This document shows, in pieces, positions 1,389 through 64,000 of a DNA stretch of 64,000 nucleotides. The first letter of the stretch is position 1. Each line of letters begins with the position of its first letter. Source of the DNA: Melieria omissa (lineage: Eukaryota; Arthropoda; Insecta; Diptera; Ulidiidae). Location of the stretch: NCBI GenBank assembly GCA_963971225.1, contig OZ020268.1, positions 61,503,900 through 61,567,899 of the forward strand, written 5' to 3'. The notes below the pieces were generated by a model, which ran no database searches, was not told the DNA's origin, and saw only the letters and a program-made list of their open reading frames with translations. The translations under genes and the position numbers were made by a program.

Positions 1389-2191
1389 AGAATTCCTATG
1401 TTACCGGACTTAGATCGGGGATAAGGGCCTAACAGGTCTATGTACAATTTTTGAAATGGACGACGAACGACGTATTGAGCTGACATTGGCGGCCGAAGTA
1501 TGAAGTTTGGTGACTTGTTTTTATGGCAATCTTCACACTTGGTTATATAATCTTTGACGTCAACGGACATGGACGGCCAATAAAAATTGATTCGGAGCCT
1601 TTCCAAGGTTTTTGCAACTCCACCGTGGCATTTATTAGGTGGGCAGTGTGCGTTTTGAATACATTCGTATACCAATTCCTTTGGGAGCCATAATTTCCAA
1701 TTGAACTGCTCTCTCACTTCTTCACCATTCGTATATTCTGTGCGTTTGTACACCTTACCGTCAATGACTTGAAGATCCGGCAATTTTGCTTGGTTATCGG
1801 AAATGTGCTTAATAAGCTTGACGTATTCATCGGACAAAAATGATTCAGACTGTAAATTAACGGACGGAAAATTTGATAATTCAGCAATTTCATCTTCGAA
1901 ATTTTGGCGAGAAAGAGCATCAGGTACAACGTTCTGCGTACCTCGTCGGTGTACGATCTTGAAGCGATAACCCTGCAGTTTAAGGGACCACCGAGCAAGC
2001 CTGCCATTTAAGTCAGTTTGACGCATAAGCCATTGCAGACTAGCATGGTCAGTTACAATCGTGAAATCTTGACCCTCGACATACGATCGAAACTTTTTAA
2101 GAGCAAGGATTGCTGCTAGACATTCAAGTTCAGTCACGCTGTAATTAGACTGTGCTTTGTTAAGTTTCTGCGAAAAGAATGCGACAGGCAT
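1389..2191 (-). pseudogene. RNase H C-terminal part and integrase zinc domain (element 1)
   Basis: This frame resumes pol after the frameshift near 2195. It covers the RNase H motifs TELECLAAI (Glu), TDHASLQWL (Asp) and PDALSR. Then come the integrase HHCC zinc domain (HCPPNKCHGG...CEDCHKNK) and the first catalytic Asp (YIDLLGPYP), and the SINE interrupts it. The order RNase H then integrase supports Ty3/Gypsy. The frame runs into the SINE for about 30 unrelated residues and stops at 1292. Confidence 0.88.
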
Positions 2192-3966
2192 TTCAACATT
2201 TTCCTATTAACTTGGGATAATACGGCTCCTACGCCAAATTTTGAAGCATCACACTGGATAAGAAAAGGTTTTGAGTAATCAGGATTTACTAAATTTGGAG
2301 CAGAACACAGTTGAGATTTTAATTGTTCGAAAGCTTGTTGAGCTTCGTCATTCCAACGAAATCCTTTGGACTTTTTGAGCAGGTTTGTCATAGGGGTGGT
2401 AACAGTTGCATAGTTTGGCAAAAAACGTCTATACCATCCCGCCATCCCAAGACAACGTCTCAACTGTTTGACAGTTGTAGGAGGAGGATAATTTAATACT
2501 GCTGAGATTTTTTCAGGATCTGTTCTCAGAGTTCCGTTACCTACGACATAACCCAAATATTTTACTTCTCTCAAACAAAACTTACTCTTCTCAACATTTA
2601 TAGTTAACCTTGCCATTCTCAAATGATGTGCTACTTCAGCCAGAACACGCATGTGCGAGTCAAAATCTTCAGAAACGATAAGTAAATCGTCAAAGTAAAC
2701 AAAAACTTTGTCTTTCAGATGGGCCGGAATAACGCGATCCATCAATCTGCATAATGCTTGTGGAGCATTACAAAACCCAAACGGCATGACAATGTACCTA
2801 TATAATGGTCGATTAGGTACAGTAAAACAGGTATAATCTCTCGAATTCTCGGCCAAGGGTATTTGCCAGAACGCTCGTTTAAGATCAAGCGATGAAATAA
2901 ATTCGGCTTTTGGCAAGCGACTCAAAATTCCATCGATATGAGGAAGTGGATAAGCATCTTTGATAGTGAAACTATTCACTTTCCGTGAATCTAGGCACAG
3001 ACGGACTTTGGAACCTTTCCTAACTAAAACTACCGGACTGGACCAAGGACTATTTGGAGCTTCCTCAATTACCCCCATGCTTAACATTTCATGGATCTCT
3101 TGGTGTACAAGTTTTTCAATTGCTGGCGATATTGGAAAATAGCGTTGTTTCACCGGACGGACGTTGGACTCGAGTTCGATGACATGCTCAATCAAATTGG
3201 TTTTCCCCAAACCGTCTTTAGTATAGGACGGAAATAAGCTCTTAACTTTTTCTAGACGGACTGACTGTTCTTGTGACAAACAATGAGCGTTTGGCGGTTC
3301 TTCCTTGCCATCGTCGACATTTTCAAGCAACGCAATAACATTCGGCGCAATTCTGAATTTGGACCAGAAATCAACCCCTAAAATTAAATTTTGAGATAAA
3401 CTCGGCACTATATAAAACAAAATATCTTCCGACAAAGCTTTAAATTTGACTTGAAGGTTTACCGTTCCAAAAACGATTTGTTGTTTACCGTCAGCTGTAC
3501 GTATTGATGTTTTGTACTTCGCTACATTTTCATTTAAGCATACTGTCTTGGCAAGTTTACCACCAATACAAGAAATAGCAGCTCCACTATCCAACAAGCC
3601 CAAATGTCGTTCATTTAAGAGCACGACTTCTGCGTAAGGGCGCAAATCAAAACCTTTCCGGCTAATCGAACCGATAATATTTAGAACATTTCTACGCGTG
3701 GTTTTAACCTTATTCCAAAATTCCCTTATTCTGTTCGCTGATCGTTTCTTTGAACATTTTGCTACCTCAAAACCGTGGTTTTTGAAAATTTCCGCTTTAT
3801 TTTCCTTATAAATTCTCATTCGCTCTTCAACTGGTATAATTTTTAATTCGCCATTTCGACTTTCTTCAGCCGCTGGGTCCCGGTGACGTATGAGTATCGT
3901 ACATCTACTAGCATTTGGTCCTAGGGAGGAATCAGATTTGCTCCCTCGCTCGCTATCCCGTTTCCC
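2134..3966 (-). pseudogene. pol: Pol: protease, reverse transcriptase, start of RNase H (element 1)
   Basis: The minus-strand frame is open from the slippery site at 3960-3966, through an ATG at 3819, to the frameshift near 2195. The retropepsin motif LLDSGAAISC is near 3590. Reverse transcriptase follows with RLCLDSRKVN, SLDLKRAFWQIPL and the catalytic YFDDLLIVSEDF (YxDD box intact). RNase H begins at LIQCDASKFGVGAVL. Translation most likely enters by -1 frameshifting from gag, because the pol frame has no stop between the heptamer and the first pol ATG. The frame breaks where its sister element reads through, so full Pol cannot be made. Confidence 0.9.
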
Positions 3967-5516
3967 GGATTACACTTAGCACAATTGGGTTTAAAAGTGT
4001 CAGCCAGGCCACAACCATAGCAAAATACTGTGCGAGGCTCTAAGCACTCGGTAAAACGATGACCTTCTTTGCGGCAATTCCAGCAGATGAGTTTGTTAGT
4101 CAAGCGACGCGTCAACTCATCTACTTCTATATCAACTACCCCAGCATTTTCTATGTCTGCATCTAAATTCACTTCGCTAACTTGTCGTCTAGTCGCCATT
4201 GGACGGCCGAAATGCGAAACTGCAGCTGTATTGGTCTTCGAAATCTCGTTTAGCAGACATTCTCCTTTAAGACAAAGCATACGCAACTGAGCTGTTGAAT
4301 GTATGGGAACATACAAGAGTTGTTGGCGTATCCTTGGTCTCAAACCTTTTTGCAAAATTTCGACAAGTTCTGACTCTTGAATTGGGGTTTGCAAGTTCTC
4401 CGAGATTTTCAAAATCGCATTCTTGTACTCGTCAAAAGTTTCGTTAACCCCTTGCTTACGTGCGCGCATGGCTTCTTTAATATCGGTGTCTGAGCGATGT
4501 TCTTGAAAATTGATACGCAAGGCTTGGCATAAACTTGGCCACGTTATCCTATCCACTGAGCGTCGGTAACGCCAATACCAATCTTTCGCATCATGTACAA
4601 ACAAGCTCTGCACATGCTCACACAATAAGTTAAAATTTCCCCCAAGTGTATCTACGACTTGTGACTCAATTCGGTAAATGAAGTTTTCAACCGATAATTT
4701 GTTAGTACCGTCAAAGCGAATATCCCAATTCGAAATTAGACTAGCTATTCTCCCTGAATGGCTCACTACAGAGGAACTACTTGCTCTCGGTTCTTGTATA
4801 AATGCATCTGCTCTGTGCAGATTATTATGCTCTTCGGCGTTTCTCAAAAACGATGGCTCTTCGCGAAGCCAATCAACTGTTGGTTGTTGTTGTACTGCAG
4901 CAGCACGCGAATCTTCTTGCTGTTGCACTTGAACTCTTTGCAAGCGATCTACAATAGTATTTAAGGAAGACTCTAGTCGTTGTTCGAAAATTTGAAAAAT
5001 GTGCTGGTCTAAACTCTCAAGCATTGCGGCTTGTCGGGTGGTAAAAACTGAACTAATAACGTCGTGAAGTCTACGATCATCAGCTACTCTGTTATCACCT
5101 TCGTCATTTTGAGTGGTGTTTGAAGTTTGTTGTGGTAAGGCACTTGGTGGTTGTTCGTGCTGTAATTGTGCTTGCGCGAGAGAATCTTGAGCGTGTGCTT
5201 GCGAAGTTGCAGCGGTAGTCACAGGTATTGAAAGACGGTTACGTTCAGGTGGATTGTTGCGAGGGACAGCACCTCTCGATCTGGTGTTCATGCCTCCTCG
5301 AGGAGTATTTGTACCACTAAATTCTCGAGCAGTACAAGTCGACCTACACTGTGGACAAGTGTTATTTTGTCTTAACCACGACAATAAACAGGTGCGATGG
5401 AAACTGTCATTACACCTTGTTTTTAAAATGTCCCCACTCTCAGAAAAATTCTCTCTACAAATTACACACGAGGTTTGAGAACTACTCAAATTCTCATTAC
5501 TATGTCTGAGAGACAT
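3921..5516 (-). CDS. gag: Gag with N-terminal RING-H2-like finger (element 1)
   Basis: The start is chosen at the ATG at 5516 (MSLRHSNEN), giving 531 residues. The upstream open frame is AT-rich and corresponds to no domain. Residues 17-57 form a RING finger (CVIC...C-NDSF-H-RT-C...CPQC, 5346-5468). The fourth metal ligand is Asp37 where the sister element has His, which could still bind zinc. A Gln- and Ser-rich linker follows (about residues 70-270). Next is a capsid-like retrotransposon Gag region (about 290-440; KDWYWRYRRS, ARKQGVNETFDEYK). The end holds a CCHC knuckle (CWNCRKEGHRFTEC) and a second Cys cluster (CYGCG...NCAKC). Gag packages element RNA; RING domains are commonly E3 ubiquitin ligases or oligomerisation modules. 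The reading frame is intact. Confidence 0.85.
   Translation of the reverse strand: MSLRHSNENLSSSQTSCVICRENFSESGDILKTRCNDSFHRTCLLSWLRQNNTCPQCRSTCTAREFSGTNTPRGGMNTRSRGAVPRNNPPERNRLSIPVTTAATSQAHAQDSLAQAQLQHEQPPSALPQQTSNTTQNDEGDNRVADDRRLHDVISSVFTTRQAAMLESLDQHIFQIFEQRLESSLNTIVDRLQRVQVQQQEDSRAAAVQQQPTVDWLREEPSFLRNAEEHNNLHRADAFIQEPRASSSSVVSHSGRIASLISNWDIRFDGTNKLSVENFIYRIESQVVDTLGGNFNLLCEHVQSLFVHDAKDWYWRYRRSVDRITWPSLCQALRINFQEHRSDTDIKEAMRARKQGVNETFDEYKNAILKISENLQTPIQESELVEILQKGLRPRIRQQLLYVPIHSTAQLRMLCLKGECLLNEISKTNTAAVSHFGRPMATRRQVSEVNLDADIENAGVVDIEVDELTRRLTNKLICWNCRKEGHRFTECLEPRTVFCYGCGLADTFKPNCAKCNPGNGIASEGANLIPP
3960..3966 (-). promoter_or_regulatory. Putative -1 ribosomal frameshift heptamer, gag-pol (element 1)
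   Basis: On the minus strand the gag frame reads ccG GGA AAC, so GGGAAAC lies in phase as X XXY YYZ. A -1 slip enters a frame with no stop through to the pol ATG. About 16 nt downstream AGGGAG can pair with CTCCCT around a 12-nt loop. The same heptamer, in the same place and phase, occurs in the related element at 56533-56539. Confidence 0.7.
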
Positions 5517-6294: not shown

Positions 6295-6312
6295 GCCCCA
6301 CGTTGGGCGCCA
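6295..6312 (-). promoter_or_regulatory. Primer-binding site, tRNA-Lys(CUU) type (element 1)
   Basis: The minus strand reads TGGCGCCCAACGTGGGGC, complementary over 18 nt to the 3' end of insect tRNA-Lys(CUU) including CCA. It lies 66 bp from the LTR end at 6379 instead of directly next to it, which is unusual. The LTR end itself is supported by the solo LTR, which ends at the same CCATAACA. Confidence 0.8.
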
Positions 6313-6378
6313 TTTTCTTCATTCAACCCTCCACCTTCTACGTCCTAACAGTGTCTGTGTTTTTATATATCTATAATC

Positions 6379-7918
6379 TGTTATGGAATAAACCGGAAGA
6401 TTTGGCCTACAGAAGAATTCATGGCTGACCGTGTACATCTGGCTTTTGTCCCGAAGCTCAGTCTGGGGTGGGTTATGTAGACAGCCATAAATTCGAAAAT
6501 CTTCGATACCGTAAAGGTCTAGGAGTAGAATGAGAGAGAGAGAAAGAAAAAAAAATTATGCACACGATAATAAAAAAAAAGTTATATTTACCAAGAACGT
6601 AGACTGAAAAAAAAACTTATTATAGGCTATGACGATGCAACTTCCGAACGCCCTCAAACACTTACACATACCTTTTAGCGACATGTTGCCGACACATGCA
6701 GCGCAGTTAAATTTATTGTGCTGCTCTATACCCGCCCTTCCATGACTTTCATAAGGTGTTACCGAAAGTCCCAAATACTCCCCCTCTCACTAACTTTCAG
6801 ACCATTAATAGTTTTCAAATTAACAAATCATTTTAATATAAATCATTGAACCGCATTAGGAATATATGTACATAGCAAAAAATTTAAGTGGCAAAAAAAA
6901 TAATAGCAAATGGGGTAAACGTATGCAAGTGAACATGTTGCATAGCAAATGTTGCGCGAGAACAAATGTATATACGGGATGTCAACTTGTTTGTGTATGC
7001 ATTTATGTAGTTGGTTGACAAACCGTATGAGAAAATAATATTGAGGCGAAAATATGCACAATGGAAACAAAGAGAAAAGAGAAAAGCAACTTACATAGGA
7101 ATTCGGCAGCGCGATCAGATGAAGGCCTCCAGCTGAGTCGATGCTTAGTTGCTGAGCTAAAAAAAAATGTTATTGGCACATATTCGCCGCTCTATTCATT
7201 TCTCGCGAATGACAATTTAGACCAAATTACGAATTAAGTTACAAAAGGGAAAATTATAAGCTAATGATAATTATGTACATAAAGTGAGAGTGAGTGAGAG
7301 TGGTTATAATGACACGGCATAATGAAGTTTGGCGAATAGTAATTAATAACGTTTAGTCCCGAGGCACAGTGGTGGAGTAGAAATTAAGCCGATGGCGAGA
7401 TTGAAGAAGAAGCTAGGTTGTTTTCGTCGGCGGAGTTCACAATCTGATGAGATGATGCATAGTTGGCATTCTTTTAGGGTGGTTCTTCTTCGCTTAAATT
7501 TTGCTCTCCGGTTACAGCCACGGCCATGCGGCCAGCACAAGCAGCACCGCAAATGAAAACACCCAATGCACTGCAAATTTATTTGCATGTAGAAAACTAA
7601 ATGCGCAAAATGGCAAAATGGACAACTAATTAGACTCTTACCGATTAAGGTGTACGTATGCTGCACTTAAAATTCTCTGCAAATACCGCGACGGCGATAC
7701 CGTCAACTTGCGATCCTGCGAGCAGAGTCGATGATTGTAATGCCCCCTTTCTACTTTTATCGTGCATGCATTTCTGACAGAAATTGTGACAAAAGTAATC
7801 GGTTTTGCGAAAGAAATTTCCTGGCCACCTCGTTTACAAAATTTTTTAGCTTTAAGAAAATTTTAATTGCAAAAATGGAATTTGATTTTTAATCACAAAC
7901 AAATTTTAACCCAGCACA
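6379..7918 (-). repeat. 5' LTR of RING-Gag element 1 (1540 bp)
   Basis: On the minus strand it runs from TGTGCTGGG (7918) to CCATAACA (6379). It matches the solo LTR at 19090-20966. Compared with that copy it lacks about 270 bp near 7772 and about 165 bp near 7285, but it carries an extra 71 bp at 7571-7641 with intron-like ends. A TC-rich simple tract lies at about 6531-6557. Confidence 0.9.
7571..7641 (-). other. Putative 71-bp spliceosomal intron inside the LTR
   Basis: On the minus strand this segment begins GTAAGAGTC and ends AAATTTGCAG. In the solo LTR the flanking sequences join exactly (ACCTTAATCG directly to TGCATTGGG, at 19620/19621). Length, donor and acceptor all fit a small fly intron, and its clean absence fits loss through a spliced RNA intermediate. 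Confidence 0.75.
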
Positions 7919-9483
7919 GTAGGCTGATACCCCTGTAGTTGGCGCATATTGTTGGGTCGCCTGAGGCAAAGGGCACTGAGGTTCCAATCGTTGGGCATTC
8001 GTTCCTCCAGCCATATTTTGCAAATGAGCTGATGCATGCACCCAATCAGCTCACCGCCGCCGGCCTTGAACAATTCAGCTGGTAGCCCATCCGGCCCTGC
8101 AGCTTTGTTGTTCTTGAGTCGCTGGATAGCGACCCGGACCTCGTCATGGCTGGGCGGTGGCACATCCACACCGTCGTCGTCGATTGGTGCCATCTGGACA
8201 TCTTCACCACTGGCGGTATTGTTCCTTTCGTCGCCTGCGAGCAGCTTGGTGAAGTGCTCCTTCCACAACCTCAGCACACCCTGCGCATCCGTAACCAGAT
8301 CCCCGTTTTCGTCTCTGCAAGAAGATGCCCCATGCTTAAATCCTTCCGTAAGACGCTTAACTTTTTGGAAGAATTTTCGGGCGTCATTCCTGCTCCTGCA
8401 CTCCTCGATTTCCTCACGCTCGCGCCTTTCTTGCTCCCGTTTCTTGCGTCTAAAAAGGCACCTCTCTTTCTTCCTCTCCTCCCGGTATTTTTCTGTCATG
8501 GCTCGCGTGGCGGCCGACTGCAGGGTCTTCTTGTAGGCAGCATTCTTCACTGCAGTGGCTGCGCGACACTCTTCATCGTACCATTGGTTTTTTGGTGGTG
8601 GGCGTCGAAAACCAAGGACATTTTCTGCGGCGGCGCGCATAGAGTGGGATTAGTGAGCCCATAATCCGCCGATGTCATCAGGTGGAGAGGGGGAGCGACC
8701 GAGCTGGTTGGAGAGTTGAGCGGAGTAGGCTTCGGCTACCCCTTGTGATCGCAGCTTACTGATGTCCAGCTTTCTTCGCAAACTAGGTTGTGCGGTCTTC
8801 GCTGCGCAAAGACGCATGCGTACCTTGGCTGCAACAAGGTAGTGGTCCGAGTCGATGTTGGGTCCTCGGAACGTGCGCACATCTAGAATGCTAGAAGCAT
8901 GCCTTCCATCAATCACAATGTGATCAATCTGGTTGCGGGTGGATTGATCGGGAGATAACCAGGTAGCCTTGTGGATATCGAGGTGCTGGAATCTGGTGCT
9001 ACTAACTACCATGTTTCGTGCCACGGCGTAATCGATCAGCCTCAGACCGTTGTTCGAAGTGGTCCCATGGAGGCTGAACTGCCCGACTGTGGGGCCAAAG
9101 ATGCCTTCTCGCCCGACCTTTGCGTTGAAGTCCCCGAGGACAATTTTGACGTCATGGGCCGGGCACCTGTCGTAGACGTCCTCGAGCTTCGCATAGAAGG
9201 CATCCTTGGTCGCATCGTCCTTCTCTTCCGTCGGGGCGTGCGCGCAAATTAGGCTGATGCTAAAGTATTTAGCTTTGATGCGGATCGAAGCCAGCCGTTC
9301 GTTCACCAGAGTGAACCGAGAGACGTGGTGGCGAAGTCTCTTGCTGACCACAAATCCGCAGCCAAATTCGCGCTTCTCCGCATGGCAGCTGTAGTAGATA
9401 TCGCAGTCTGCTCGCTTGGAGCAACCTTGCCCTGTCCATCGCATTTCCTGGATGGCGGTGATGTCAGCCTTACATTTCGTGAG
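7919..9483 (-). pseudogene. RTE-type LINE fragment (endonuclease and start of RT)
   Basis: About 97% identical by eye to part of the full copy at 36096-39349. It contains most of the AP-endonuclease domain (WTGQG, LGDFNAKVG, IDHIVIDG, SDHYLV) and the region leading into reverse transcriptase (AGPDGLPAELFKAGG). A TTA-to-TAA change makes a stop at 8650-8652, and about 15 bp are missing near 7962. The 5' end is truncated at 9483, where piggyBac sequence resumes. The 3' part is cut off by the Gypsy element and presumably continues left of the window. Confidence 0.92.
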
Positions 9484-11851: not shown

Positions 11852-12763
11852 TTACGGCTGGCTCTCAGATGTTTCTTGATCGTCGTCGTAGTCATCATCG
11901 ATTTCCGGAAACAGCACACACCATGGCTTGATTTTGTCGCTGCTGACAACGGTGCTGAACCTCTTCTGTTTTGTATGGAGCCCGTCGACGTTTGCAACTA
12001 CGTATCGGTCGAACCGCAGCACTTTGGCAACCACGTAAGGACCACGGTAGCTTAAGTCCAGCTTGCGTGATTCACCGGTGCTTGGTGGCGGACATTCGAT
12101 GAGGACCAGGTCTCCTTCGGCGTACTTGCGTGGCTGGGCGTGTTTCGCGTCAAACCTTGTTTTCCACGATGCACGCGCTGCTTCGACGTTCTTGATCGCA
12201 TCTTCGCGCTTCTTGTTCATATTCAGGTTGACGTTATCATCATGCAATGCTGCTAGCATCCTGTTGCCATTTTTATCTCGGAGAGGAAAATCAAAAACGA
12301 GATCGATTGGCGCAAACTTCGTTGTAGTGTTGACATTAGTATTCAGCGTCCACTGGAGGTCACTTAGTCTGTCGTCCCAGCGCTTGTTATCTGTTGTCGT
12401 CGGCTTCAAGAACGAGAGGATTGATTGATTGACTCGCTCGGCGAGGCCGTTGGATCGTGGCGTACGCACAGCTACTTTCACGTGTTGAATGTTGTGGTCT
12501 GCACAAAACTCTGCGAACTGCGCCGACGTGAATGCTGTACCTCTGTCGGTGACGACGCGCTGTGGTGACCCGAAATACTGCATCAGGCTTTTCAATGCGT
12601 CAACGACCAGCTTTGACTTTGTAGACTTGACTGCTATGATGACGACGTATCTGGTTAGCGCATCCACGATCACCAGGATATGCTCATTTCCTCGTTTGCT
12701 CTTTATGAATGGTCCCAGATGGTCCATATGGAGTACCTCGAAGGGAAGTTGGGGTATCTGCAT
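11852..12763 (-). pseudogene. Integrase core and C-terminus (mdg3/micropia-like)
   Basis: An open frame of 303 residues carries the DDE triad as HMDHLGPF, VTDRGTAF and NGLAERVN, with FDAKHAQPRKYAEGDLVL in the C-terminal region. The HHCC zinc domain is partly on the preceding frame (CHDDVGHPAVD, about 12930) and a frameshift near 12790 separates the two. The catalytic core itself looks intact. Confidence 0.88.
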
Positions 12764-39000: not shown

Positions 39001-39349
39001 TATAGAGGGTCCGGACATTCCAGGTGCATATCCTCAAATCATGGTCCTTGAATCGTTTGCTGTGGTCGTCAACATTGTGGGTTCCTTCCGAGGCTTGCTT
39101 TTTGGCTTTCATTGGTATTTGGTTTTCCGTGGCGGGCACCAAACCCTGCGCACAACCCAAATTTTAAGTCCTGGGGATAGGACTCGCTGCACACATTAGT
39201 TCACTATTCAGCGGATGCCAAATAGCTATCCAGAAGGGCCGCGCGGAGGCTGTGCATCAGCTTGGATTGGACAGGGACAAGGATCGTTCTGGCGTTCGCC
39301 AGGTTGAACGCAATCAGAGACTTTGCCTTGTATGTCCGCTCCCTTCCTT
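36096..39349 (-). mobile_element. RTE-type LINE, full length with one stop codon
   Basis: 3254 bp on the minus strand with a 12-bp TSD CATTAAATGGCT (36084-36095, 39350-39361). The 3' end is a short TAAG-type tandem repeat (36096-36111), and there is no poly(A) tail. One long frame encodes an AP-endonuclease followed by reverse transcriptase, and about 190 bp of 5' UTR precede it. Length, domain order and repeat tail fit RTE-like LINEs. Confidence 0.9.
36128..39160 (-). pseudogene. RTE polyprotein: AP-endonuclease and reverse transcriptase
   Basis: About 1010 codons from MGCAQGLVPA (39160) to 36128, broken only by TAG at 38453-38455, where the fragment at 7919-9483 has AAG (Lys). Endonuclease motifs: CTWNVRTL, AIQEMRWTGQG, HAPTEEKDD, LGDFNAKVG, IDHIVIDG, SDHYLV. 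RT motifs: AGPDGLPAELF, PVLKKGDPT, GPYQCGFRPGKST, FIDYKAAFDS, GFRQGDPLSCDLF and the catalytic LAYADDIDV. The C-terminus has the RTE-typical RLRWLGHVCRMDD and RRRRGRPCLRW. The enzyme nicks target DNA and primes reverse transcription there. This copy is one base from intact, so its insertion is recent. Confidence 0.92.
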
Positions 39350-48062: not shown

Positions 48063-51000
48063 GTCGCAACAACGACTGATTGAAAGAATGCACCTCTGAT
48101 CTATATAACCAATCAAATGCTTGTGGAACCTGAGTACGCACAATCACTTTAATCAAAATGGCGTCAAAATTAAGCCAGACCACCTTTCACTAATTTGGTA
48201 AATAAAAAAAATATCCCACCGGCAGCATGATCGAAATTATGGCTGTTAAATCTCGACCCGTTAACGGATTTTAATAATATTATGCCTTATTATTTAGCTA
48301 GACTCGTATGCTTTCTATAATGGTATCAATCATCCTTCTATACCCCAAGGTTCGAAAGCAAATCGATTTGGAATGGTGACTTTGAAAAAATTGGTTCTTG
48401 GGTGCAACCACTAAAATGCTTGTCAACACCAAATGCATAAGTGCATATTAATAATTGACCCCTTAAAATTTAGCCAGAGTCTTATGCTTTCTATATTGGT
48501 CCCTAACTTTTCATTATCCTTCAGGAGTAATGAGCATATCGATGCGCAAGGATAACATTGAAAAACTGCCTATTACAAAATACACACTCACCACTAAAGT
48601 GCTTATGGTTGCAAACGGTATGGGTTACGTTAATAAAAAAACCCCTTAAAATGTAGCTAGACATTGCAGCTTTATCAAATTAAATCAATAATTTGATTAC
48701 TATTCGGCAATCATGACCAGATCGATGCGCAAGAGTGACATTAAATGACTGCCTACTGCAAATCGATAAAATGCTTGTAAAATATGATGATTCTAGGTTT
48801 CTGGAAAAAATAATAACCTTAAAACCTAGCTGGAGTTTTGAACTTTCATAAATGGGGTCAATCTTCTTGCTATCTCAAATAATGCAGGAGAATTTCGTTG
48901 TGGAAAAGTGATATCGACCACATGATACATCTATATCAGGGGTGCCGAAAATCTTCTTATGGAAAAGCAAAAACCAATACATGTAAAGTTGCCCAAAAAA
49001 ATGCAACAACAAATTATTTCATTAATTGAATTAGTTGAAAGCACATTGTGCATTTCGCTTGACCCTTAAAATTATAAGTGAAAACAATATAATGTTCCCA
49101 TTTGTCATTGCCGAAAGGCCAACCAATCGCCAAAACAAAAACTACAACAACAAAAGCATCTAATTTTTTTTCATACATACAATTTCTTGAGGCAACAAAA
49201 CAAAAATCCGCGCAGCCCCCACACGTGTTGCTGTCGCAACAACGACTGATTGAAAGGATGCACCTCTGATCTATATAACCAATCAAATGCTTGTGGAACC
49301 TGAGTACGCACAATCACTTTAATCAAAATGGCGACAAAATTAAGCCAGACTGACCACCTTTCACCAATTTGGTAAATAAAAAAAATATCCCACCGGCAGC
49401 ATGATCGAAATTATGGCTGTTAAATCTCGACCCGTTAACGGATTTTAATAATATTATGCCTTATTATTTAGCTAGACTCGTATGCTTTCTATAATGGTAT
49501 CAATCATCCTTCTATACCCCAAGGTTCGAAAGCAAATCGATTTGGAATGGTGACTTTGAAAAAATTGGTTCTTGGGTGCAACCACTAAATGCTTGTCAAC
49601 ACCAAATGCATAAGTGCATATTAATAATTGACCACGTAAAATTTAGCCAGAGTCTTATGCTTTCTATATTGGTCCCTAACTTTTCATTATCCTTCAGGAG
49701 TAATGAGCATATCGATGCGCAATGATAACATTGAAAAACTGCCTATTACAAAATACACACTCACCACTAAAGTGCTTATAGATTCCAAACGGTATGGGTT
49801 ACGTTAATGAAAAACCCCTTAAAATGTAGCTAGAGATTGCAGCTTTATCAAATTAAATCAATAAGTTGGTTACTATTCGGCAATCATGAACAGATCGATG
49901 CGCAAGGGTGACATTAAATGGCTGCCTACTGCAAAATCGATAAAATGCTTTTAAAATATGATGATTCTAGGTTTATAGAAAAAATAATAACCTTAAAGCC
50001 TAGCTGGAGTTTTGAGCTTTCATAAATGGGGTCAATCTTCTCGCTATCTCAAATAATGCAGGAGAATTTCGTTGTGGAAAAGTGATATCGACCACATGAT
50101 ACATCTATATCAGGGGTGCCCAAAATCTTTTTATGGAAAAGCAAAAACCAATACATGTAAAGTTGCCCAAAAAAATGCAAACAAATTATTTAATTAATTG
50201 AATTAGTTGAAAGCACATTGTGCATTTCGCTTGACCCTTAAAATTATAAGTGAAAAAAATATAATGTTCCCATTTGTCATTGCCGAAAGGCCAACCAATC
50301 GCCAACACAAAAAAGCATACACACAAAAACTACAACAACAAAAGCATCTAATTTTTTTTTATACATACAATTTCTTGAGGCAACAAAACAAAAATCCGCG
50401 CAGCCCCCACACGTGTTGCTTCGTTGCTGTCACAACAACGACTGATTGAAAGAATGCACCTCTGATCTATATAACCAATCAAATGCTTGTGGAACCTAAG
50501 TACGCACAATCACTTTAATCAAAATGGCGTCAAAATTAAGCCAGAGTGACCACCTTTCACCAATTTGGTAAATAAAAAAAATATCCCACCGGCAGCATGA
50601 TCGAAATTATGGCTGTTAAATCTCGACCCGTTAACGGATTTTAATAATATTATGCCTTATTATTTAGCTAGACTCGTATGCTTTCTATAATGGTATCAAT
50701 CATCCTTCGATACCCCAAGGTTCGAAAGCAAATCGATTTGGAACGGTGACTTTGAAAAAATTGCTACTTGGGTGCAACCACTAAAATGCTTGTCAACACC
50801 AAATGCATAAGTGCATATTAATAATTGACCACTTAAAATTTAGCCAGAGTCTTATGCTTTCTACATTGGTCCCTAACTTTTCATTATCCTTCAGGAGTAA
50901 TGAGCATATCGATAAGCAAGGATAACATTGAAAAACTGCATATTACAAAATACACACTCACCACTAAAGTGCTTATAGATTCCAAACGGTATGGGTTACG

Positions 51001-52567
51001 TTAATAAACAACCCCTTCAAATGTAGCTATAGATCGCAGCTTTATCAAATTAAATCAATAATTTGATTACTATTCGGCAATCATGAACAGATCGATGCGC
51101 AAGAGTGATATTAAATGGCTGCCTACTGCAAAATCGATACAATGTTTGTAAAATATGATGATTCTAGGTTTATAGAAAAAATAATAACCTTAAAACCTAG
51201 CTGGAGTTTTGAGCTTTCATAAATGGGGTCAATCTTCTCGCTATCTCAAATAATGCAGGAGAATTTCGTTGTGGAAAAGTGATATCGACCACATGATACA
51301 TCTATATCAGGGGTGCCCAAAATTTTCTTATGGAAAAGCAAAATCCAATACATGTAAAGTTGCCCAAAAAAAGCAAACAAATTATTTCATTAATTAAATT
51401 AGTTGAAAGCACATTGTGCATTTCGCTTGACCCTTAAAATTATAAGTGAAAAAAATATAATGTTCCCATTTGTCATTGCCGAAAGGCCAACCAATCGCCA
51501 AAACAAAAACTACAACAACAAAAGCATCTAATTTTTTTTCTTACATACAATTTCTTGAGGCAACAAAACAAAAATCCGCGCAGCCCCCACACGTGTTGCT
51601 TCGTTGCTGTCGCAACAACGACTGATTGAAAGAATGCACCTCTGATCTATATAACCAATCAAATGCTTGTGGAACCTAAGTACGCACAATCACTTTAATC
51701 AAAATGGCGTCAAAATTAAGCCAGAGTGACCACCTTTCACCAATTTGGTAAATAAAAAAAATATCCCACCGGCAGCATGATTGAAATTATGGCTGTTAAA
51801 TCTCGACCCGTTAACGGATTTTAATAATATTATGCCTTATTATTTAGCTAGACTCGTATGCTTTCTATAATGGTATCAATCATCCTTCTATACCTCAAGG
51901 TTCGAAAGCAAATCGACTTGGAACGGTGACTTTGAAAAAATTGGTTCTTGGGTGCAACCACTAAAATGCTTGTCAACACCAAATGCATAAGTGCACATTA
52001 ATAATTGACCCCTTAAAATTTAGCCAGAGTTTTATGCTTTCTATATTGGTCCCTAACGTTTCATTATCCTTCAGGAATAATGAGCATATCGATAAGCAAG
52101 GATAACATTGAAAAACTGCCTATTACAACTGCTTAGGTTTATAGAAAAAATAATAACCTTAAAACCTAGCTGGAGTTTTGAGCTTTCATAAATGGGGTCA
52201 ATCTTCTCGCTATCTCAAATAATGCAGGAGAATTTCGTTATGGAAAAGTGATATCGACCACATGATACATCTATATCAGGGGTGCCCAAAATCTTCTTAT
52301 GGAAAAGCAAACACCAATACATGTAAAGTTGCCAAAAAAAAAGCAAACAAATTATTTAATTAATTGAATTAGTTTAAAGCACATTGTGCATTTCGCTTGA
52401 CCCTTAAAATAATAAGTGAAAACAATATAATGTTCCCATTTGTCATTGCCGAAAGGCCAACCAATCGCCAGAACAAAAACTACAACAACAAAAGAATCTA
52501 ATTTTTTTTCATACATACAATTTCTTGAGGCAACAAAACAAAAATCCGCGCAGCCCCCACACGTGTT
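48063..52567 (+). repeat. 1.18-kb satellite array, block 11
   Basis: Landmark boxes at 48215, 49389, 50585 and 51766 (spacings 1174, 1196, 1181). The last monomer is shortened near 52128 (CCTATTACAACTGC joined to TTAGGTTTATAG). It stops at ACACGTGTT, where RING-Gag element 2 is inserted. Confidence 0.93.
49443..50115 (+). repeat. Representative set of four satellite sub-repeats
   Basis: One monomer's sub-repeats are about 49443-49620, 49621-49803, 49804-49978 and 49979-50115. Each begins with TTAATAA or a variant, then CCTTAAAA…TAGC(T/C)AGAG, a TTTCTATA-like word and TCATTATC/CTATCTC. Most also have an (A/C)ATATCGATGCGCAA-type box or derivative, a GTGACATTGAAAA-like word, and an ACTAAA(G/A)TGCTT or equivalent end. 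They are diverged from each other but conserved between monomers. Confidence 0.7.
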
Positions 52568-52734
52568 TGTGATGGTTGCCCTGTGGTGTAATGTAAAAGA
52601 TTATAAAATGCAACCCTGCGAGCACTCTAGGCTAGTAATAGACGAACACAAAACTGGCGGACGGCTGACGTGGCAACCACTGAACTGTAACAAACGAACT
52701 GCGGAGGAGACGGTGACGAGCTAGAGAACGACGC

Positions 52735-53310
52735 GGTCGACAAGTTGCCTGAGAACCACCACGCGCGGTGCCAGCAGCAGCAGCCAGCCACGTGAGCACC
52801 AGCTTGGCCGCACCAGCACGCGCTCGAGAAGTTGCCTGATAGCCACCACGCGCGGTGCCAGCAGCAGCAGCCATCCACGTGAGCACCAGCTTGGCCGCAC
52901 CAGCACGCGCTCGAGAGGTTGCCTGATAGCCACCACGCGCGGTGCGAGCAGCCAGCCAGTCACGTGAGCACCAGCTTGACCGCACCAGCACGCGCTCGAG
53001 AAGTTGCCGGAGAACCACCACGCGCGGTGCCAGCAGCAGCCAGCCACGTGAGCACCAGCTTGGCCGCACCAGCACGCGCTCGAGAAGTTGCCTGAGAACC
53101 ACCACGCGCGGTGCCAGCAGCAGCAGCCAGCCACGTGAGCACCAGCTTGGCCGCACCAGCACACGCTCATGAAGTTTCCTGATAGCCACCACGCGCGGTG
53201 CGAGCAGCCAGCCAGTCACGTGAGCACCAGCTTGACCACACCAGCACGCGCTCGCGGCAGTCTCATCCTAGCCACCACGCGCGGTGCCAGCAGCAGCAGC
53301 GTTCGGGCTA
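52735..53310 (+). repeat. GC-rich tandem repeat in LTR, about 84-88 bp x 6-7
   Basis: Units centred on CCACCACGCGCGGTGC and CACGTGAGCACCAGCTTG recur about every 84-88 bp. All six frames are unusually open because the unit length is often a multiple of 3 or lacks stops; none looks like a protein. Its GC content contrasts sharply with the AT-rich surroundings. Confidence 0.85.
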
Positions 53311-53595
53311 CTTCCACCACAGCGGCTCGATTGCCGACGCGAGAACCCCCCCCCCTTGTGCGGTATCCCATACCATTTGCGATGTTTGAATTATTATATT
53401 AGTAACTTTAATTTCCCTTTTGTTATTGGCGCCTCTGTGCAGCAGCAACAGAGAAACGGAAGCAGGTCCAGCACTCCACGAATTCACCCGAGCTTCGCCG
53501 TATCGCCGAATTGTTTGCGCAAACAACGAGGGATCGCCGATCAGGACACGTGAGTGTGACAGAATCCTAAGTAAGTGAACTTATTCGTATCTCTC

Positions 53596-53790
53596 TTTTG
53601 CTGCTTTCGCCTTCTAAATATTAGTCCGAATACCAAATGTATATATTTTTTGCGGCTTCCGCTCCCGAATCAATATTTTAAGTCCGGGTTGTTAAATTTC
53701 TCTTTGGCGGCTTCCGCCTCCTCATTAATATTTAAGTCGGAACTGTAAAATGTCTTTTGCGACTTCCGCTTCCTAATCAATATTTTAGCT
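53596..53790 (+). repeat. Four diverged repeats of about 50-60 bp in LTR
   Basis: Units resemble TTTTGCGGCTTCCGCTCC, then AATCAATATTTTAAGTCCG. A possible splice donor, AAGTAAGTG, lies just upstream near 53570. Confidence 0.65.
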
Positions 53791-54307
53791 TAAGCATCCA
53801 ATGAATAAAATGTAAATAGATATTCAATGTGATCAGCGTCGTTGCCATATGGATGGGTCGGGAGAGACGGTCGCTAAGGTTGGGAAGGGGAGAGCCGGGG
53901 GCCATTGACCACCTTAGGTCCCCCTCTGGTTGTTGTCACCTCGGTGTTGTCGCTTCACTGCTGCTTGCGTGAACTTATACTCTACACCGGCGGGGTGGAC
54001 GAGTAGGTTCGTAAGTAGTATTGTCCGTCCGATTGTCCGTACGTCAAGTTGCATGGCCGGTTGATAGGTAGAATTGTCCGCGGTGTGAGAATATCATCCT
54101 CTTCTTTTACGGGTGTTTTCTAGTAAGAAAAACCCACGTGCATGAATAACTTTGTGTATTGTTGGTAGGTAGCGGCAGGTGCTCGAGCAAGAACCCCCCC
54201 CCACACCCGAAGAGCTTAGACCTGGTACCCAGCTAGCATGCACACCCGCTCGGCATTGCAGTACATTAAATACCAGCAGGTCCTTTTGGAAGGGCACATT
54301 ACATAAA

Positions 54308-54355
54308 TGGCGCCCAACCAAGGATCCATTACATAAATGGCGCCCAACGTGGGGC
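54308..54355 (+). promoter_or_regulatory. Primer-binding site region, duplicated (tRNA-Lys type)
   Basis: TGGCGCCCAAC at 54308-54318 is followed by a 30-bp-offset copy at 54338-54355 reading TGGCGCCCAACGTGGGGC, the full 18-nt complement of tRNA-Lys(CUU). A third partial copy (CCAACGTGGGGCCCACAAAA) starts at 54382. Only the second gives the full match. Confidence 0.75.
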
Positions 54356-54951
54356 CCACAAAACCTGTGGGATACTCACAACCAACGTGGGGCCCACAAA
54401 AGTGGGATACTCAACTAAAATTTATTTTCTTTTTTTTTTGAAAAGGTTTTGGAAGGTGTCGGAATTAGTCGTGAATGCTTTGTAGACGTTCAGCTAACCA
54501 ACCGGAAGAAATCGTAACGAACTCTCTCCTGAACATTGGTCTTTTAGGCTTTAATTTATTTCGGAATAGAGTTGAAGTATCTGTCTTAAAGGTACACTCT
54601 ACCATTATTTTATACCTACAAACCATTGTTTTCCTTTTGAAGCTGTTATCCTTTATGAGTACAAAGTCGACTTAAGGTAGTTGCGTAGCTCATAAATAAT
54701 AGCAGTAGCCCGCTCTTCGACACCAAATTAATTTCTCTGTACACTTCGTGAGGTGAATGCAGAGTGGCAACAACATTTCTCTCTTTGGCAACGACGCCTG
54801 ATCACATTTAGACCTTTTATTTAGAACTCTTTCGAAAAAAAAACAAGAGAAATTTTTTCTATTTTTTTTGAGTACAACAAACATTTTTTTTTGGAAATCA
54901 TCATTTGACATTTTATCGGATTTTGAGAAAGAAAAAAAATTAAATTTAAAC
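54356..54951 (+). other. 5' leader of RING-Gag element 2
   Basis: AT-rich leader between primer site and gag. Frames such as 54475-54675 are short and show no domain. Confidence 0.55.
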
Positions 54952-56611
54952 ATGGCTGTTCGTCGTAGTGAGGAAAATTTGCCTCAGCTGGTTACACCAG
55001 GAGGTTTGTGTTCTATTTGCGATGAGGCAACCACGGAGGCGAATTGCTCCACTACACCGTGCAACCATGAGTTCCACCGCACATGCATTTCAATCTGGTT
55101 GCATGACAATGACACCTGTCCGTTGTGCCGTCGCGTAATCGACACACACTCAATAAATGACTTTAATGAACAAGGCTCGCGGCCAGAAGTACACCCACCA
55201 ATGGCATCTGGAGCTATTCCGCGAACAACAAAGGTTGGCGAAGGCCCTGTTACACGCTCACACACAACCGGAGCTGAAATCCTTAATCGACCTTCCTTTG
55301 GAACCGCTAACCCGGCCACGAACAGTGCTCGTCGTCGGGGCAGACGTCCAAAAACCTCGAACCTACACAATAACCCAACAAGACAAAACTCTAACTCGGA
55401 CTCGACGCGCCTACAAGAACTTGTAGAAACCACGATACAAAGACAGCAAGAAGCTCATACCCGCGCAATCCAAAACACCGTTGAGCAGTTGGTCACCAAC
55501 TCCTTAGAGCAATATTTCCGTGCATTAAATGTTAATCGGGTACAATCGAATACTGAGGGAAACCCGCGGGAAAACCTAGCTGAGCCGGATTGGCCTCAAC
55601 AGGAACCCTTTTCTGGTAGAAACTTAAACCAGGCTAGGCTGAATAGTGATGAGAGTCGCGCGCGGTCGAGAATCCAGCGTAGTTCAGCACAAAGTGGTAG
55701 CTCCCGCGCTCCGCAAAGGCTCGGTGAGGCTACTAACCATCCCCTTAGTTCTGTTGCAAAAATCATTTCTGATTGGAAGCTCGTATTTGATGGGTCAATC
55801 GAAGGGGTTTCTGTGGACGAATTTATCCATCGAGTCAATGCTTTGACTGTCTCTTCCTTACGCGGTAACTTTAGTGCACTATGTCAAAACGCGCACATAC
55901 TATTTGAGGGAAAAGCTAAAAGTTGGTATTGGCGTTATCACCGTACTACCCACAGATTAGACTGGTTTGATATATGTGAGGCATTACGTAGACAATATAA
56001 AGATTTTCGGTCTGACTACGATATCAAAGAATCGATACGCAATCGCAAACAAAAGGCTAATGAGAACTTTGAAAAGTTTTTAGAATCCATTATGACACTG
56101 TGCGATGCACTAAGTTCCCCTTTGACAGAAGAAGAGCTGATCGAAACAGTTATCCGCAATCTTCGACCCGAAATCAGGTTTGAGCTATTGCACCTTAACA
56201 TCGGCACTCTGTCAGATTTACGTCGTGCTTGTCGTAGGCATGAGAATTTCTTTGAACATGTGCAGGGTACTCAGATCTTTCCTGCAAAAAACTGCTACCG
56301 CTACTAGGAGGTATATTTCCGAAATTGACGAGGTAGGGACCAATTCTGAGGATAATGACAGCGAATCCTTCGCTGAGAGGGATGCGGTTAATGAAATTAG
56401 TGACATGAAATGCTGGAATTGTGAGGAGGTAGGCCATCGTTATAAGCAATGCGTAAAACCGCGTCGTGTATTCTGCTATGGATGCGGTCTTCTAGCATTT
56501 TTCCTTCCCAATTGCCCCAATTGCAACCAGCAGGGAAACCCGCTAAGGGGTGCTCGCAACAACACCAGCAAGCCCCCACAACAAATGTCAAATCGACGAC
56601 CGAACCTATAG
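54952..56611 (+). pseudogene. gag: Gag with N-terminal RING-H2 finger (element 2)
   Basis: The start at 54952 (MAVRRSEENLPQL) is preferred over the upstream in-frame ATG at 54868 because it aligns with the element 1 start. Residues 20-59 are a canonical C3H2C3 RING-H2 (CSIC…C…C-N-H-EF-H-RT-C…CPLC; 55009-55128). A charged, Gln/Asn-rich linker follows, then a capsid-like region (about residues 260-420; KSWYWRYHRTTHRLDW, NRKQKANENFEKF). A one-base indel in an A6 run at about 56286 shifts frame. The next frame holds the CCHC knuckle (CWNCEEVGHRYKQC) and a Cys cluster (CYGCG…CPNC), ending at 56611. The indel could be a mutation or an assembly error. Confidence 0.87.
56533..56539 (+). promoter_or_regulatory. 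Putative -1 ribosomal frameshift heptamer, gag-pol (element 2)
   Basis: Gag reads caG GGA AAC; GGGAAAC is in slippery phase. A -1 slip gives GGG AAA and enters the pol frame, which is open from 56449 to about 58146. Six bases downstream GGGG…GCT can pair with AGC…CCCC (about 56547-56580). Confidence 0.72.
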
Positions 56612-58093
56612 CCATTCGCAAGCCTCAGTTTTCTTTTGATACCCCGGGACTTACGAAATTACACCTTATTAAACCATTCCACCAACGGTTGGATGAATAT
56701 AACACTCGGCGTAGGCAAATTTTTAACCAAACTGACTCTCGCGCGGCTTTACGCGCAAGTGAGTATTGGCGAAGGATGAAGTTCAAGCGCATCGACCTAA
56801 TATCTTCTATTTTATGCAGACCTGGTGACGTTAGGCCGTACGCCTCAATTAGGCTACTGGACACTTCTATGTTAGGCTTGCTCGACTCGGGGGCAACGAT
56901 TAGTTGTATAGGAGGAGAGCTGGCTCAAAGTATACTCCAGCGCAAGCACGATCTAGGCCTTAAACCGCTTAAACTGCAAGCCCGCACCGCAAACGGGGCG
57001 GCACAGGAAGTTGTAGGTGTTGTTGAATTAGAAGTATCTTATCAGAACGGCACGAAACCGGTGGAGTTTTATGTTATTCCGACGTTGTCTCAAAACGTTT
57101 ATCTAGGAGTAAATTTTTGGAGGTTGTTTAAGTTAGCAACTCACATTATCGGGGAGGTTAACGTCGAAGATCAAGAGTCAAATTCACATAACCTGACACC
57201 GGAGCAAAGGCGAAAGCTAAACGCAGCCATCAGTTGCTTTCCATCTTACGAGGAGAATGGCCTCGGGAAAACTTCGCTCCTGGAGCATGTGATCGACGTG
57301 GGATCAGCGAAGCCGATCAAGCAGAGGCACTTTCCCATTTCACCAGCAGTAGAAAAGTTAGTGGGTCAGGAGATAGACCGAATGATTCAGATGGGCGTAA
57401 TCGAGGAGTCACCTAGCGCCTGGTCTTCACCGGTTGTGCTAGTGAGGAAGCCAGGAAAAGTGAGGCTTTGTTTAGACAGCCGTAAAGTTAATTCCGTAAC
57501 GGTAAAGGACGCGTATCCCCTGCCACACATTGAGGGACTTCTAAGCCGACTTCCTCGCGCAGAATTTATCTCAAGCTTGGACTTGAAAGACGCCTTCTGG
57601 CAAATTCCATTGGAGGCGAGCTCTCGTGAGAAAACGGCTTTCACAGTGCCAAACCGGCCTCTTTACCAGTATAAGGTAATGCCATTTGGCCTGTGCAACG
57701 CTCCACAAACAATGTGCCGGTTAATGGATAAAGTGATCCCTTATAATTTGAAAGAGCGCGTATTCGTATATCTGGATGATCTTTTGCTAGTGTCGGAAGA
57801 TTTCTCTTCGCATATTCAGCTGTTGCAGGAAGTAGCTTACCATATACAAAAAGCCGGCCTGACGATTAATATAGCCAAGAGTAAATTCTGTTTAAAGCAA
57901 GTTAGCTATTTAGGCTATGTAGTTGGTAACGGTACTCTACAGACTGACCCTGATAAGGTTTCCGCCATTGTTGATTACCCACCACCTAAAACGGTACGCC
58001 AACTCCGCAGATTTTTGGGCATGGCAGGGTGGTACCGGCGCTTTATTGCGAACTTTGCCGGTTTGACACATCCGCTAACAGAATTACTAAAAA
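56533..58093 (+). pseudogene. pol: Pol: protease, reverse transcriptase (element 2)
   Basis: The protease active site is LGLLDSGATISCIGG (about 56875). RT follows with RLCLDSRKVNS, SLDLKDAFWQIPL, the catalytic VYLDDLLLVSEDF (YxDD intact) and FLGMAGWYRRFIANFA. A one-base deficit in the A6 run at about 58088 moves the frame, and RNase H continues in the 58029-59093 frame. Apart from that indel the protein looks healthy. Confidence 0.9.
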
Positions 58094-59012
58094 ATCTAGG
58101 TCTTTTGACTGGTCTGAGGAGGCACAGAGAGCATTTAACGAACTGAAGGAGCGGTTGACATCAGCACCCTTCTTAGCAAACCCCGATTTTACAAAAGCGT
58201 TCATCATTCAATGTGATGCAAGTCAGCATGGAGTGGGGGCAGTATTAGCCCAGCTAAATGAAGAAAACATTGAAGTCCCTGTGGCTTATATGTCGCAGAA
58301 GCTGAACAAAGCACAGCGCAACTATTCCGTGACTGAGCAGGAGTGTTTAGCAGCAGTGCTGGCAGTCAAAAAGTTCCGGCCTTATGTAGAAGGGCAGGAA
58401 TTTAAAATCATCACTGATCACGCTAGTCTTCGTTGGCTCATGCAACAATCAGACCTTAACGGACGGCTAGCGCGCTGGGCACTTAAGTTACAAGGTTTCA
58501 AATTTACAATTGAACATCGTAAGGGTAGTACTAACGTGGTTCCGGACGCTCTCTCTCGTGCGTGCTCCGACAGTTCAGAAAATGTAGCTGCGCTGCAAGT
58601 TGACTATGTACCAGATATCGATCTCGCATCACCCCATTTTAATGACTCAGACTATGTAGAGTTGCGGGAGAAAATTTTAGCCGATTCGGACAAGCATCCT
58701 GATTTGCAAGTTCGTGAGAATTTCATATACCACCGGACGGAACCTTATTCAGGCGATATCGAACAACAAGAGTCGACATGGAAGCTAGTCGTACCGAAAG
58801 CCTTACAGGAAAAAGTGATTCACGACGCTCATGACGTACCGGTAGGGGCCCACGGCGGCATAGCTAAAACTGTCGATAGAATTAGGCGGTTCCTTTTCTG
58901 GCCAGGACTTTCGTTATCTGTACGCGAGTACGTTTCCAAATGCGTAATATGTAAGTCTACTAAACATCCGACAAAAGTCATAAGACCACCCATGGGAAAT
59001 TTCGTACCAACG
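58094..59012 (+). pseudogene. RNase H and integrase zinc domain (element 2)
   Basis: After the frameshift: IQCDASQHGVGAVLAQ, TEQECLAAVLAVKKF, ITDHASLRWLM and VPDALSRA (RNase H). The HHCC-type integrase zinc domain follows (HDVPVGAHGG…CVICKSTKH). The frame enters the Transib at 59013 and stops inside it at 59093. Confidence 0.88.
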
Positions 59013-62649: not shown

Positions 62650-63451
62650 AGTGCCAACCGGCCCTACTCCACACCTGACGGTAACGGACTAGACTGACAA
62701 AAAACTAACGATTGAACTATAATGCTCTAGACGGTCTCCCGACGAAATACTTAGCGGAAGTTTATGGAACAACTATCCGTCGGACAAGAGGAGATGTTTA
62801 GCGGGTTGAAGTCTCGCACTGACTTGGGCTTTCGATGCTTTTACTCCTCATAAAAAACAACAAAAAAAACAAAATCTAAACCAGTTTTAAGTTATCTACA
62901 CACACTCTTGTAATCGGCAAATATTTATACTTTCATTATTTTACTCATAGCGTTTACTATAAAATATGTATTGTAAGCCAAAACAGCTTCAATCATAGGT
63001 GTACGTTTATTTCTCTTTGTAACCAAAATAAATTATGAAACATGAAAAACAAAAATAAATTTTATTCATCCCTAAAAGTATGCAATCAGCATGAAAAATT
63101 GAGAAAACTGCAAAAATGCAAAACAACATCTATTATAATCGTTTTTATTGCAATACCAGAGGGTCCTAAGACAATTTCTGTTACTCTTTGGAATAATCAA
63201 TGATGACGTTATCGATTAAATGTAAAATCTGAAAAATCTAGCCAACACACTTGGTACTATAGCTCTCCAAAAACGACGAAATTTGAAAATTCAAGACCCT
63301 GGCATTGCTAAACTACAAAAGTTTAAGAAAAAAAAAATGGAGATTTCAGTTCAGCTGACCATGATTAACTAGTATACAAAATTTTATGAAGAACAGACCA
63401 CTCCTTCTAATTTTGTCCCGCGGTTGTATGGAGTCGAATCACTGTGCAACG

Positions 63452-64000
63452 GAAAGGATTTTTCAACGACTGTACGTTGACTTAATCGGCCCGTTTCCCC
63501 GGTCGAAAAATGGACATATTGGCATTTTAATCGTCTTAGACCAGTTGTCTAAATTTACCTTCCTTTGCCCCTTAAAGAAATTTAGTTCAACACCTATAAT
63601 AAACTTTCTCAAAGAGCATGTATTTGACGTTTTTGGTGTGCCAGAGTGTCTCGTGAGCGATAATGGTAGCCAATTCAAATCCGGGGAATTCAAATCGTTT
63701 CTAACCAAGTGCGGTATAAAACATATATGCGCCGCTGTGTATTCACCGCAAAGCAACAGTTCCGAAAGAGTTAATCGCTCAATTAATGCTGCCCTCCGAG
63801 CGTACATAAAAGAAGATCAGCGCGAATGGGATGTTCACTTAAGCAGTGTCAACTGCGCATTGCGCAACTCGACTCATCAGTCCACATCCAAAAGTCCGTA
63901 TTTTACTGTCTTTGGACAGCACATGGTTACGCATGGGGATAATTATGAGCTTCTGAGGAACATTAACATGATCGAAGAAGGGTGTATACGGAATCAAGAA
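63452..64000 (+). pseudogene. Integrase catalytic core (element 2), cut by window end
   Basis: Immediately after the Transib TSD the element 2 frame resumes: RLYVDLIGPFP (first Asp), CLVSDNGSQFKS (second Asp) and SNSSERVNRS (Glu), so the DDE core is intact in this part. Gly/Tyr-rich YFTVFGQHM matches element 1. The frame is open to the window edge. Confidence 0.9.

Follow-up and report, generated by a model that had tools for sequence, protein, structure and literature searches.

A RING finger under purifying selection at the N-terminus of Gag in Gypsy-type retrotransposons of the fly Melieria omissa

Two Gypsy-type elements with a RING finger in Gag

The window analysed here is the whole 64,000-nucleotide (64-kb) stretch of Melieria omissa contig OZ020268.1 (GenBank assembly GCA_963971225.1, positions 61,503,900 to 61,567,899 of the forward strand). 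It holds two Gypsy-type elements, element 1 on the minus strand and element 2 on the plus strand, each with a Gag protein that starts with a RING finger (Table 1). The parts of Gag are ordered as a RING-H2 finger, a disordered linker, a predicted long helix, the capsid, and a CCHC knuckle with a second cysteine cluster. In element 2, positions 54952-55128 (+) run from the ATG to the last RING cysteine, and the helix is modelled with block pLDDT of 81-89 for residues 151-190, lower toward both ends. The capsid lies in the same frame as the RING in both elements, with Retrotrans_gag above and Ty3_capsid below the Pfam cut-off, and the CCHC knuckle of element 2 falls in a second frame because its Gag frame is broken near the end. 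The second cluster (C[YF]GCG, 6-7 residues, PxCxxC) sits directly 3' of the CCHC in both window copies and in all 15 database Gags that were compared, a set that excludes P0013 and includes RING-less relatives.

Table 1. Features of the two RING-bearing elements, in window coordinates
Feature	Position	Strand	Basis
Element 1: 5' LTR region, ~1.6 kb	6313..7919	-	first 142 bases recur 100% at 1-142
Element 1: primer binding site	6295..6312	-	18/18 to tRNA-Lys pattern
Element 1: Gag, open, 531 aa	3921..5516	-	open frame, Pfam
Element 1: RING finger, Asp at ligand 4, with linchpin Arg	5343..5468	-	ligand reading, Pfam, sequence match, model
Element 1: predicted long helix in Gag	4893..5087	-	model, residues 144-208
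Element 1: capsid domain	4233..4760	-	Pfam
Element 1: CCHC knuckle and second Cys cluster, in the frame of the RING	3972..4085	-	motif
Element 1: protease and reverse transcriptase frame, overlapping the Gag end	2134..3969	-	open frame, Pfam
Element 2: primer binding site	54338..54355	+	18/18 to tRNA-Lys pattern
Element 2: Gag, first open part, 451 aa	54952..56307	+	open frame, Pfam
Element 2: RING-H2 finger, C3H2C3, with linchpin Arg	55009..55131	+	ligand reading, Pfam, sequence and structure matches
Element 2: long helix predicted between RING and capsid, possibly a coiled coil	55393..55545	+	model, residues 148-198
Element 2: capsid domain, dArc1/PEG10/Ty3-like	55738..56274	+	Pfam, structure search
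Element 2: CCHC knuckle and second Cys cluster, in a frame other than that of the RING	56411..56524	+	motif
Element 2: protease and reverse transcriptase frame	56449..58146	+	Pfam

Beyond the protease and reverse transcriptase frames, pol continues in pieces, at 1382-2203 and 198-974 in element 1, and in element 2 at 58068-58997 and, past an interruption, at 63449-63988. A tRNA-Glu-like sequence at 1296-1370 (-), perhaps a tRNA or a tRNA-derived SINE insertion, lies within the pol interruption of element 1. Scanning the window with what we take to be the 18-base tRNA-Lys primer pattern, with up to 3 mismatches allowed and 0.04 chance matches expected, we found two sites, both exact. The start of the site in element 2 sits in a 29-base direct repeat (54290-54348), its first 8 bases occurring twice, 30 bases apart. 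Repeats with ~1 kb spacing at 50000-52567 and a shorter array at 52688-53254 stand immediately upstream of this element.

At 32% identity between their Gags (151 of 479 columns, E 6e-66), the two elements are not the product of one recent duplication. A first-pass annotation had described them as two copies with unrelated LTRs, which could be checked in part: a blastn comparison of the sequence leading up to the element 1 primer site with 52001-54400, which precedes that of element 2, gave nothing significant (best E 0.48). A 3' LTR of element 2, sought within the 64-kb window, was not found (best E 0.13), pol continuing to 63988. The inner end of the element 1 LTR is not fixed, and its partner LTR continues beyond the window edge.

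Other elements share the window. A third Gypsy-type element (-), which serves as a control within the window, has a CCHC at 14100-14474 and, at about 12104-14085, pol pieces of about 25-33% identity; its upstream frame at 14502-15692 has no Pfam match, and no RING is reported there. The frame at 25633-27864 (+), with DUF1759 and weak DUF1758/aspartyl protease matches, is presumably a BEL/Pao-type Gag-protease. LINE-like frames (-) encode an endonuclease and reverse transcriptase at 36128-39160 and an endonuclease at 8650-9651.

Zinc ligands, structure and E2-facing residues

All eight zinc ligands of a RING-H2 ligase are present in element 2, spaced C-x2-C, C-x-H-x2-H-x2-C and C-x2-C (C3H2C3), and element 1 has the identical layout at 5346-5468 (-) except that Asp replaces the first His (ligand 4). 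The Pfam profile zf-RING_2 matches both Gags (E 8.5e-11 and 9.8e-13), and against a cut-off of 27.3 bits it scores 42.4 and 48.6 for the two RING fragments and 41.0 and 45.6 for the two whole Gag frames. These results agree with the first-pass annotation, which had read C3H2C3 in element 2 and a His-to-Asp change at ligand 4 in element 1, and had placed a RING-H2 finger at the start of Gag, ahead of a capsid-like region and a CCHC knuckle.

The closest solved relatives by sequence are RING ligases, namely RLIM, RNF126 and RNF38 for element 2 and RNF4, RNF126 and RNF38 for element 1. In the structure search with the element 2 model, the RING part matches solved RINGs at Foldseek E values of 0.004-0.02 only, one of these being the complex of RNF12/RLIM with an E2 (49% identity and rmsd 1.4 across 45 columns, E 0.01). 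All eight PDB matches at E <=0.001 are capsids, the RING matches having higher E values, and the VIA-align rows mainly cover the capsid part, residues 265-445. The RING of element 1 is modelled more weakly (block pLDDT 47-75), and the full-length models have pTM of 0.28 and 0.27, at which the placement of RING relative to capsid is not predicted. Although alike in RING sequence and predicted fold, none of the host RING-H2 ligases RLIM, RNF126 and RNF38, to our knowledge, has a retroviral-type capsid.

Four RING positions (Ile/Leu, Trp, Pro and the linchpin Arg/Lys) are, we assume, those that hold the E2 and ubiquitin, and all four residues are present in both window copies. This fits the earlier suggestion of an E3-like RING, and so does the retention of Pro and linchpin Arg across the copies in the same genome described next.

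RING-bearing Gag copies in the Melieria omissa genome

Of 471 candidates from a search of the 490-Mb genome with a RING-bearing Gag query, 94 were scored, and the matches obtained numbered 138, several per locus. We examined 69 loci, made up of element 1 and 68 fetched loci (one of which is element 2), hand-picked across similarity bands with many near-identical small-contig copies omitted. At 51 of the 69 loci the RING is complete and shares its frame with the capsid, two of these loci (L006 and L046) having a truncated capsid; the 51 were selected by their six Cys, with both His sites left free. RING-coding DNA is retained at the remaining 18 too: in 15 the match is full-length, with no lost Cys, and not in one open frame with the capsid, and in three (L055, L058 and L061) only the later part is left. 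No RING-less Gag family was seen among the 69 loci, given a RING-bearing query and the scored fraction of candidates. On three small contigs (C36, C78 and C138 of G000), RING-Gag copies of equal score recur every ~6.12 kb, a pattern suggestive of tandemly arrayed members of one element family.

The 51 complete copies form seven families at 70% identity. Ligand 4 is His in 50 of them, including L009 and L010, the siblings of element 1, and a family-wide His-to-Asp variant is thereby rejected; as far as seen, the change is private to element 1. Of the E2-facing residues, Pro and the linchpin Arg are each kept in 51/51, and the first two positions are Ile and Trp in 41/51 and Leu and Tyr in 10/51.

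Purifying selection on the RING

For the selection analysis we estimated dN/dS by the Nei-Gojobori method from 17 independent within-family pairs, using each copy once, with copies <0.3% apart set aside and the loci restricted to those whose RING is complete and in frame; the open-frame requirement pushes dN/dS down somewhat. The RING gave a dN/dS of 0.18 (25 synonymous and 18 nonsynonymous changes; binomial p 1e-7 against neutrality), far from the value near 1 that the first-pass annotation had named as telling against its claim; the capsid stands at 0.12 and the segment separating it from the RING at 0.36. Leaving out the ligand codons raises the RING value to 0.21 (p 3e-6). Three divergent pairs contribute 17 of the 25 synonymous and 11 of the 18 nonsynonymous changes; without them it is 0.23 (p 0.005), and without both them and the ligand codons 0.29 (p 0.04). 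The ratio thus stays <1 in every reduced set tried. Between-family estimates were discarded as saturated (pS 0.79-1.09). This analysis shows that the RING is under purifying selection and that the finger matters to the element.

RING fingers among database relatives

A first protein search returned 14 Gag relatives, and a profile search returned 88 matches, of which 14 were Gag relatives (one of them, P0019, new) and 74 were others carrying precomputed Pfam RING families without Retrotrans_gag, mostly named host RING proteins. By ligand pattern, 10 of the 15 Gag relatives (P0005-P0019) have the RING, P0015 and P0017 scoring 24.8 and 23.0 bits with RING_2, under the Pfam cut-off of 27.3. The five without it (P0011, P0013, P0014, P0016 and P0018) were kept outside the RING counts, and P0013 also outside the second capsid tree. 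Four of them start inside the linker or capsid and are hence uninformative; P0018 differs in having the N-terminus of the family and no RING. A host-annotated protein of Drosophila gunungcola (LOC128265316, P0153), 995 aa long, combines RING, capsid, CCHC-type cluster, protease and reverse transcriptase in one chain, as the window elements do across their frames, and differs from them in having Leu and Tyr instead of Ile and Trp on its E2 face.

In midpoint-rooted capsid trees, the deepest split has RING bearers in both of its branches, suggesting that the finger is old in this Gag group. P0018 is nested among RING bearers with support of 95 in the second capsid tree, and its lack of a RING looks like a loss. 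The first-pass annotation had called the RING a stable family trait, and its presence in the 10 relatives, in P0153 and at the 51 loci of the fly's own genome is in keeping with that; the RING extends well beyond the two window copies. None of the three outcomes that it had named as refuting (no RING by profile or structure, Ka/Ks near 1, a RING confined to these two copies) was observed. A chance or private fusion is rejected on these relatives and own-genome copies together with the low dN/dS.

Among 11 aligned Gags chosen without regard to ligand pattern, seven of the eight ligand columns do not vary, and His makes up at least 90% of the other. A further set of 13 diverse RINGs was chosen by a pattern that fixes six Cys and one His and accepts either His or Asp at ligand 4, no relative being dropped for a damaged RING and five others lacking the region; its 103 of 104 ligand cells are largely matched by construction, because the ligand pattern selected them. 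Majority identity over these 13 sequences is 0.44 in the other RING columns, 0.31-0.39 in the linkers and helix, and 0.61 in the capsid. Their E2-facing residues are more varied: the first position is Ile in 10, Leu in one and Ser in two; the second is Trp in nine, Tyr in one, and Ala, Glu and His in one each; Pro is kept in 12 and Arg or Lys in all 13. P0015, P0017 and P0019 are the sequences with Ala, Glu and His in place of Trp, P0015 and P0017 also being those with Ser for Ile, and all three keep every ligand, so the zinc fold can persist without the standard E2 face, and some relatives outside the fly's own genome look like fold-only versions.

Viruses yielded no counterpart within the searches made. 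In a scan of viral contigs, 81 stretches fit the pattern and none was confirmed as a relative. A fold search against viral proteins brought up no obvious protein combining RING and capsid among the best 50 of 261 matches: the top match, a fungal metavirus ORF1 (A0A0S2KPW8, E 2.7e-05), has an rmsd of 23 and is not informative, and most of the others are RING proteins of large DNA viruses.

Relation to the Osvaldo lineage

Both elements are best explained as degraded Osvaldo-type Ty3/Gypsy retrotransposons. The tRNA-Lys primer is not exclusive to the Osvaldo lineage, since gypsy also uses Lys. Three features of that lineage were compared: the tRNA-Lys primer site is present in both elements at 18/18; the ~1.6 kb of element 1 between the LTR start and the primer site agrees with the long LTRs of the lineage, which span about 1 kb up to 2.6 kb; and the RING in Gag, found in Osvaldo and an Isis-like element and absent in Isis, is present by Pfam. 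Among the best 120 of 1052 pol matches, any names given are those of species rather than of element lineages. The papers cited from here on were available in part, and what we say of them refers to those parts. The tRNA-Lys primer is invariant in mosquito Osvaldo-like elements and is also used by Osvaldo (PMC3286476), so that the exact sites and the LTR region of element 1 agree with the lineage as described there. The Isis LTR is 742 bp, and long LTRs are thus not a strict feature of the lineage (PMC3630058).

The first-pass annotation knew of no described Gag with this layout, and here it has to be corrected, as a RING finger in the Gag of an Osvaldo-lineage element, the Isis-like element of Calliphora vicina, was in print in 2013, with the RING given as present in Osvaldo and absent in Isis (PMC3630058). 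That Isis-like element resembles ours in being a Ty3/Gypsy element with a 531-aa Gag bearing a RING, 2.6 kb LTRs, Gag and Pol frames, and a CCHC domain marked in the supplement legend; it differs in that its RING is covered in a sentence or two, without alignment, selection test or function, and we compared it by description only (PMC3630058). Osvaldo of Drosophila buzzatii, likewise compared by description only, shares the Gag RING (PMC3630058) and the tRNA-Lys primer (PMC3286476). Two further mentions come from figure or supplement legends: Pao_Cv1 of C. vicina, known by legend only, is an LTR element with a marked RING finger domain that belongs to another superfamily, BEL/Pao (PMC3630058), and an element-structure legend for D. 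virilis includes 'RING - ring finger domain' (PMC12910113). In the partial texts searched, PMC3630058 was the only report found of a RING in Osvaldo-lineage Gag, the Osvaldo passages of PMC12992720, PMC7334843, PMC5408442 and PMC3286476 making no mention of it, and no experiment on the ligase activity of a Gag of this kind was found. The layout is known; the evidence of constraint on the RING is new.

Possible function of the finger

We favour an active ligase over a purely structural finger, because the E2-facing residues are kept in the fly's own genome, less well among the 13 diverse sequences. Judged from its residues, the RING of Osvaldo-type Gag is a little more probably than not an active E3 ligase, which would bind a host E2 and gain activity with assembly. 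The finger would bind the E2 enzyme as RLIM, RNF126 and RNF38 do, making Gag a ubiquitin ligase, and many RINGs would come together on each particle as capsids assemble, raising their activity. The targets may be Gag itself, with effects on particle number, turnover or trafficking, or host proteins held at the particle. Counting against an active ligase are the loss of Trp in P0015, P0017 and P0019, the absence of the RING in P0018 and in Isis (PMC3630058), and a selection signal that leans on three divergent pairs.

The same relatives give substance to a less probable, still quite plausible reading, in which the RING serves Gag as a structural or protein-binding module, for assembly or for the binding of RNA or partners, with no ligase activity and only the zinc fold mattering. 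Three relatives that keep eight ligands with Trp lost (and Ile lost in two) speak for it, as does the modest constraint outside the ligands over the 13 diverse sequences; on the other hand, the own-genome RINGs all keep Pro and the linchpin Arg, with Trp or Tyr at the Trp site, which a purely structural zinc site does not obviously need.

If the finger is a ligase, it might ubiquitinate host proteins of piRNA silencing, host silencing factors being the target that the first-pass annotation had put forward, and other viruses do deploy RINGs against host defence; nothing beyond the E3-like surface points that way here, self-modification of Gag needs fewer assumptions, and we consider such a target improbable. 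A passive relic or chance fusion without function is very improbable: the loss of the RING in P0018 and in Isis (PMC3630058) and the broken state of both window elements would suit it, and the selection result (dN/dS 0.18, p 1e-7, and <1 in every reduced set) and the occurrence of the RING in both of the deepest branches of the midpoint-rooted capsid trees stand against it.

With an active, assembly-dependent ligase as the preferred reading, the nearest arrangement in other proteins deserves comparison. TRIM5-type proteins have a RING followed by a long helix, and their activity is raised by gathering on a capsid lattice. The Gags described here share the order of RING and then long helix, predicted in this case, and differ in having the capsid in the same chain; the TRIM order of RING, B-box and coiled coil was not found, as Pfam at E 0.01 detects no B-box in either Gag, and the linker between RING and helix in element 2 contains no Cys. 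Tentatively, Osvaldo-type Gag might be a built-in, capsid-linked ligase switched on by assembly, an equivalent of the TRIM5 arrangement that the element makes for itself. Selection would have maintained it in the flies seen, with loss or catalytic relaxation in a few branches.

Should the RING be active, an insect retrotransposon lineage would have a ubiquitin ligase of its own in its shell protein, tying particle assembly to the host ubiquitin system in a simple, testable way. Even without ligase activity, the selection result shows the importance of the finger to the element, a point that goes beyond the brief earlier report (PMC3630058).
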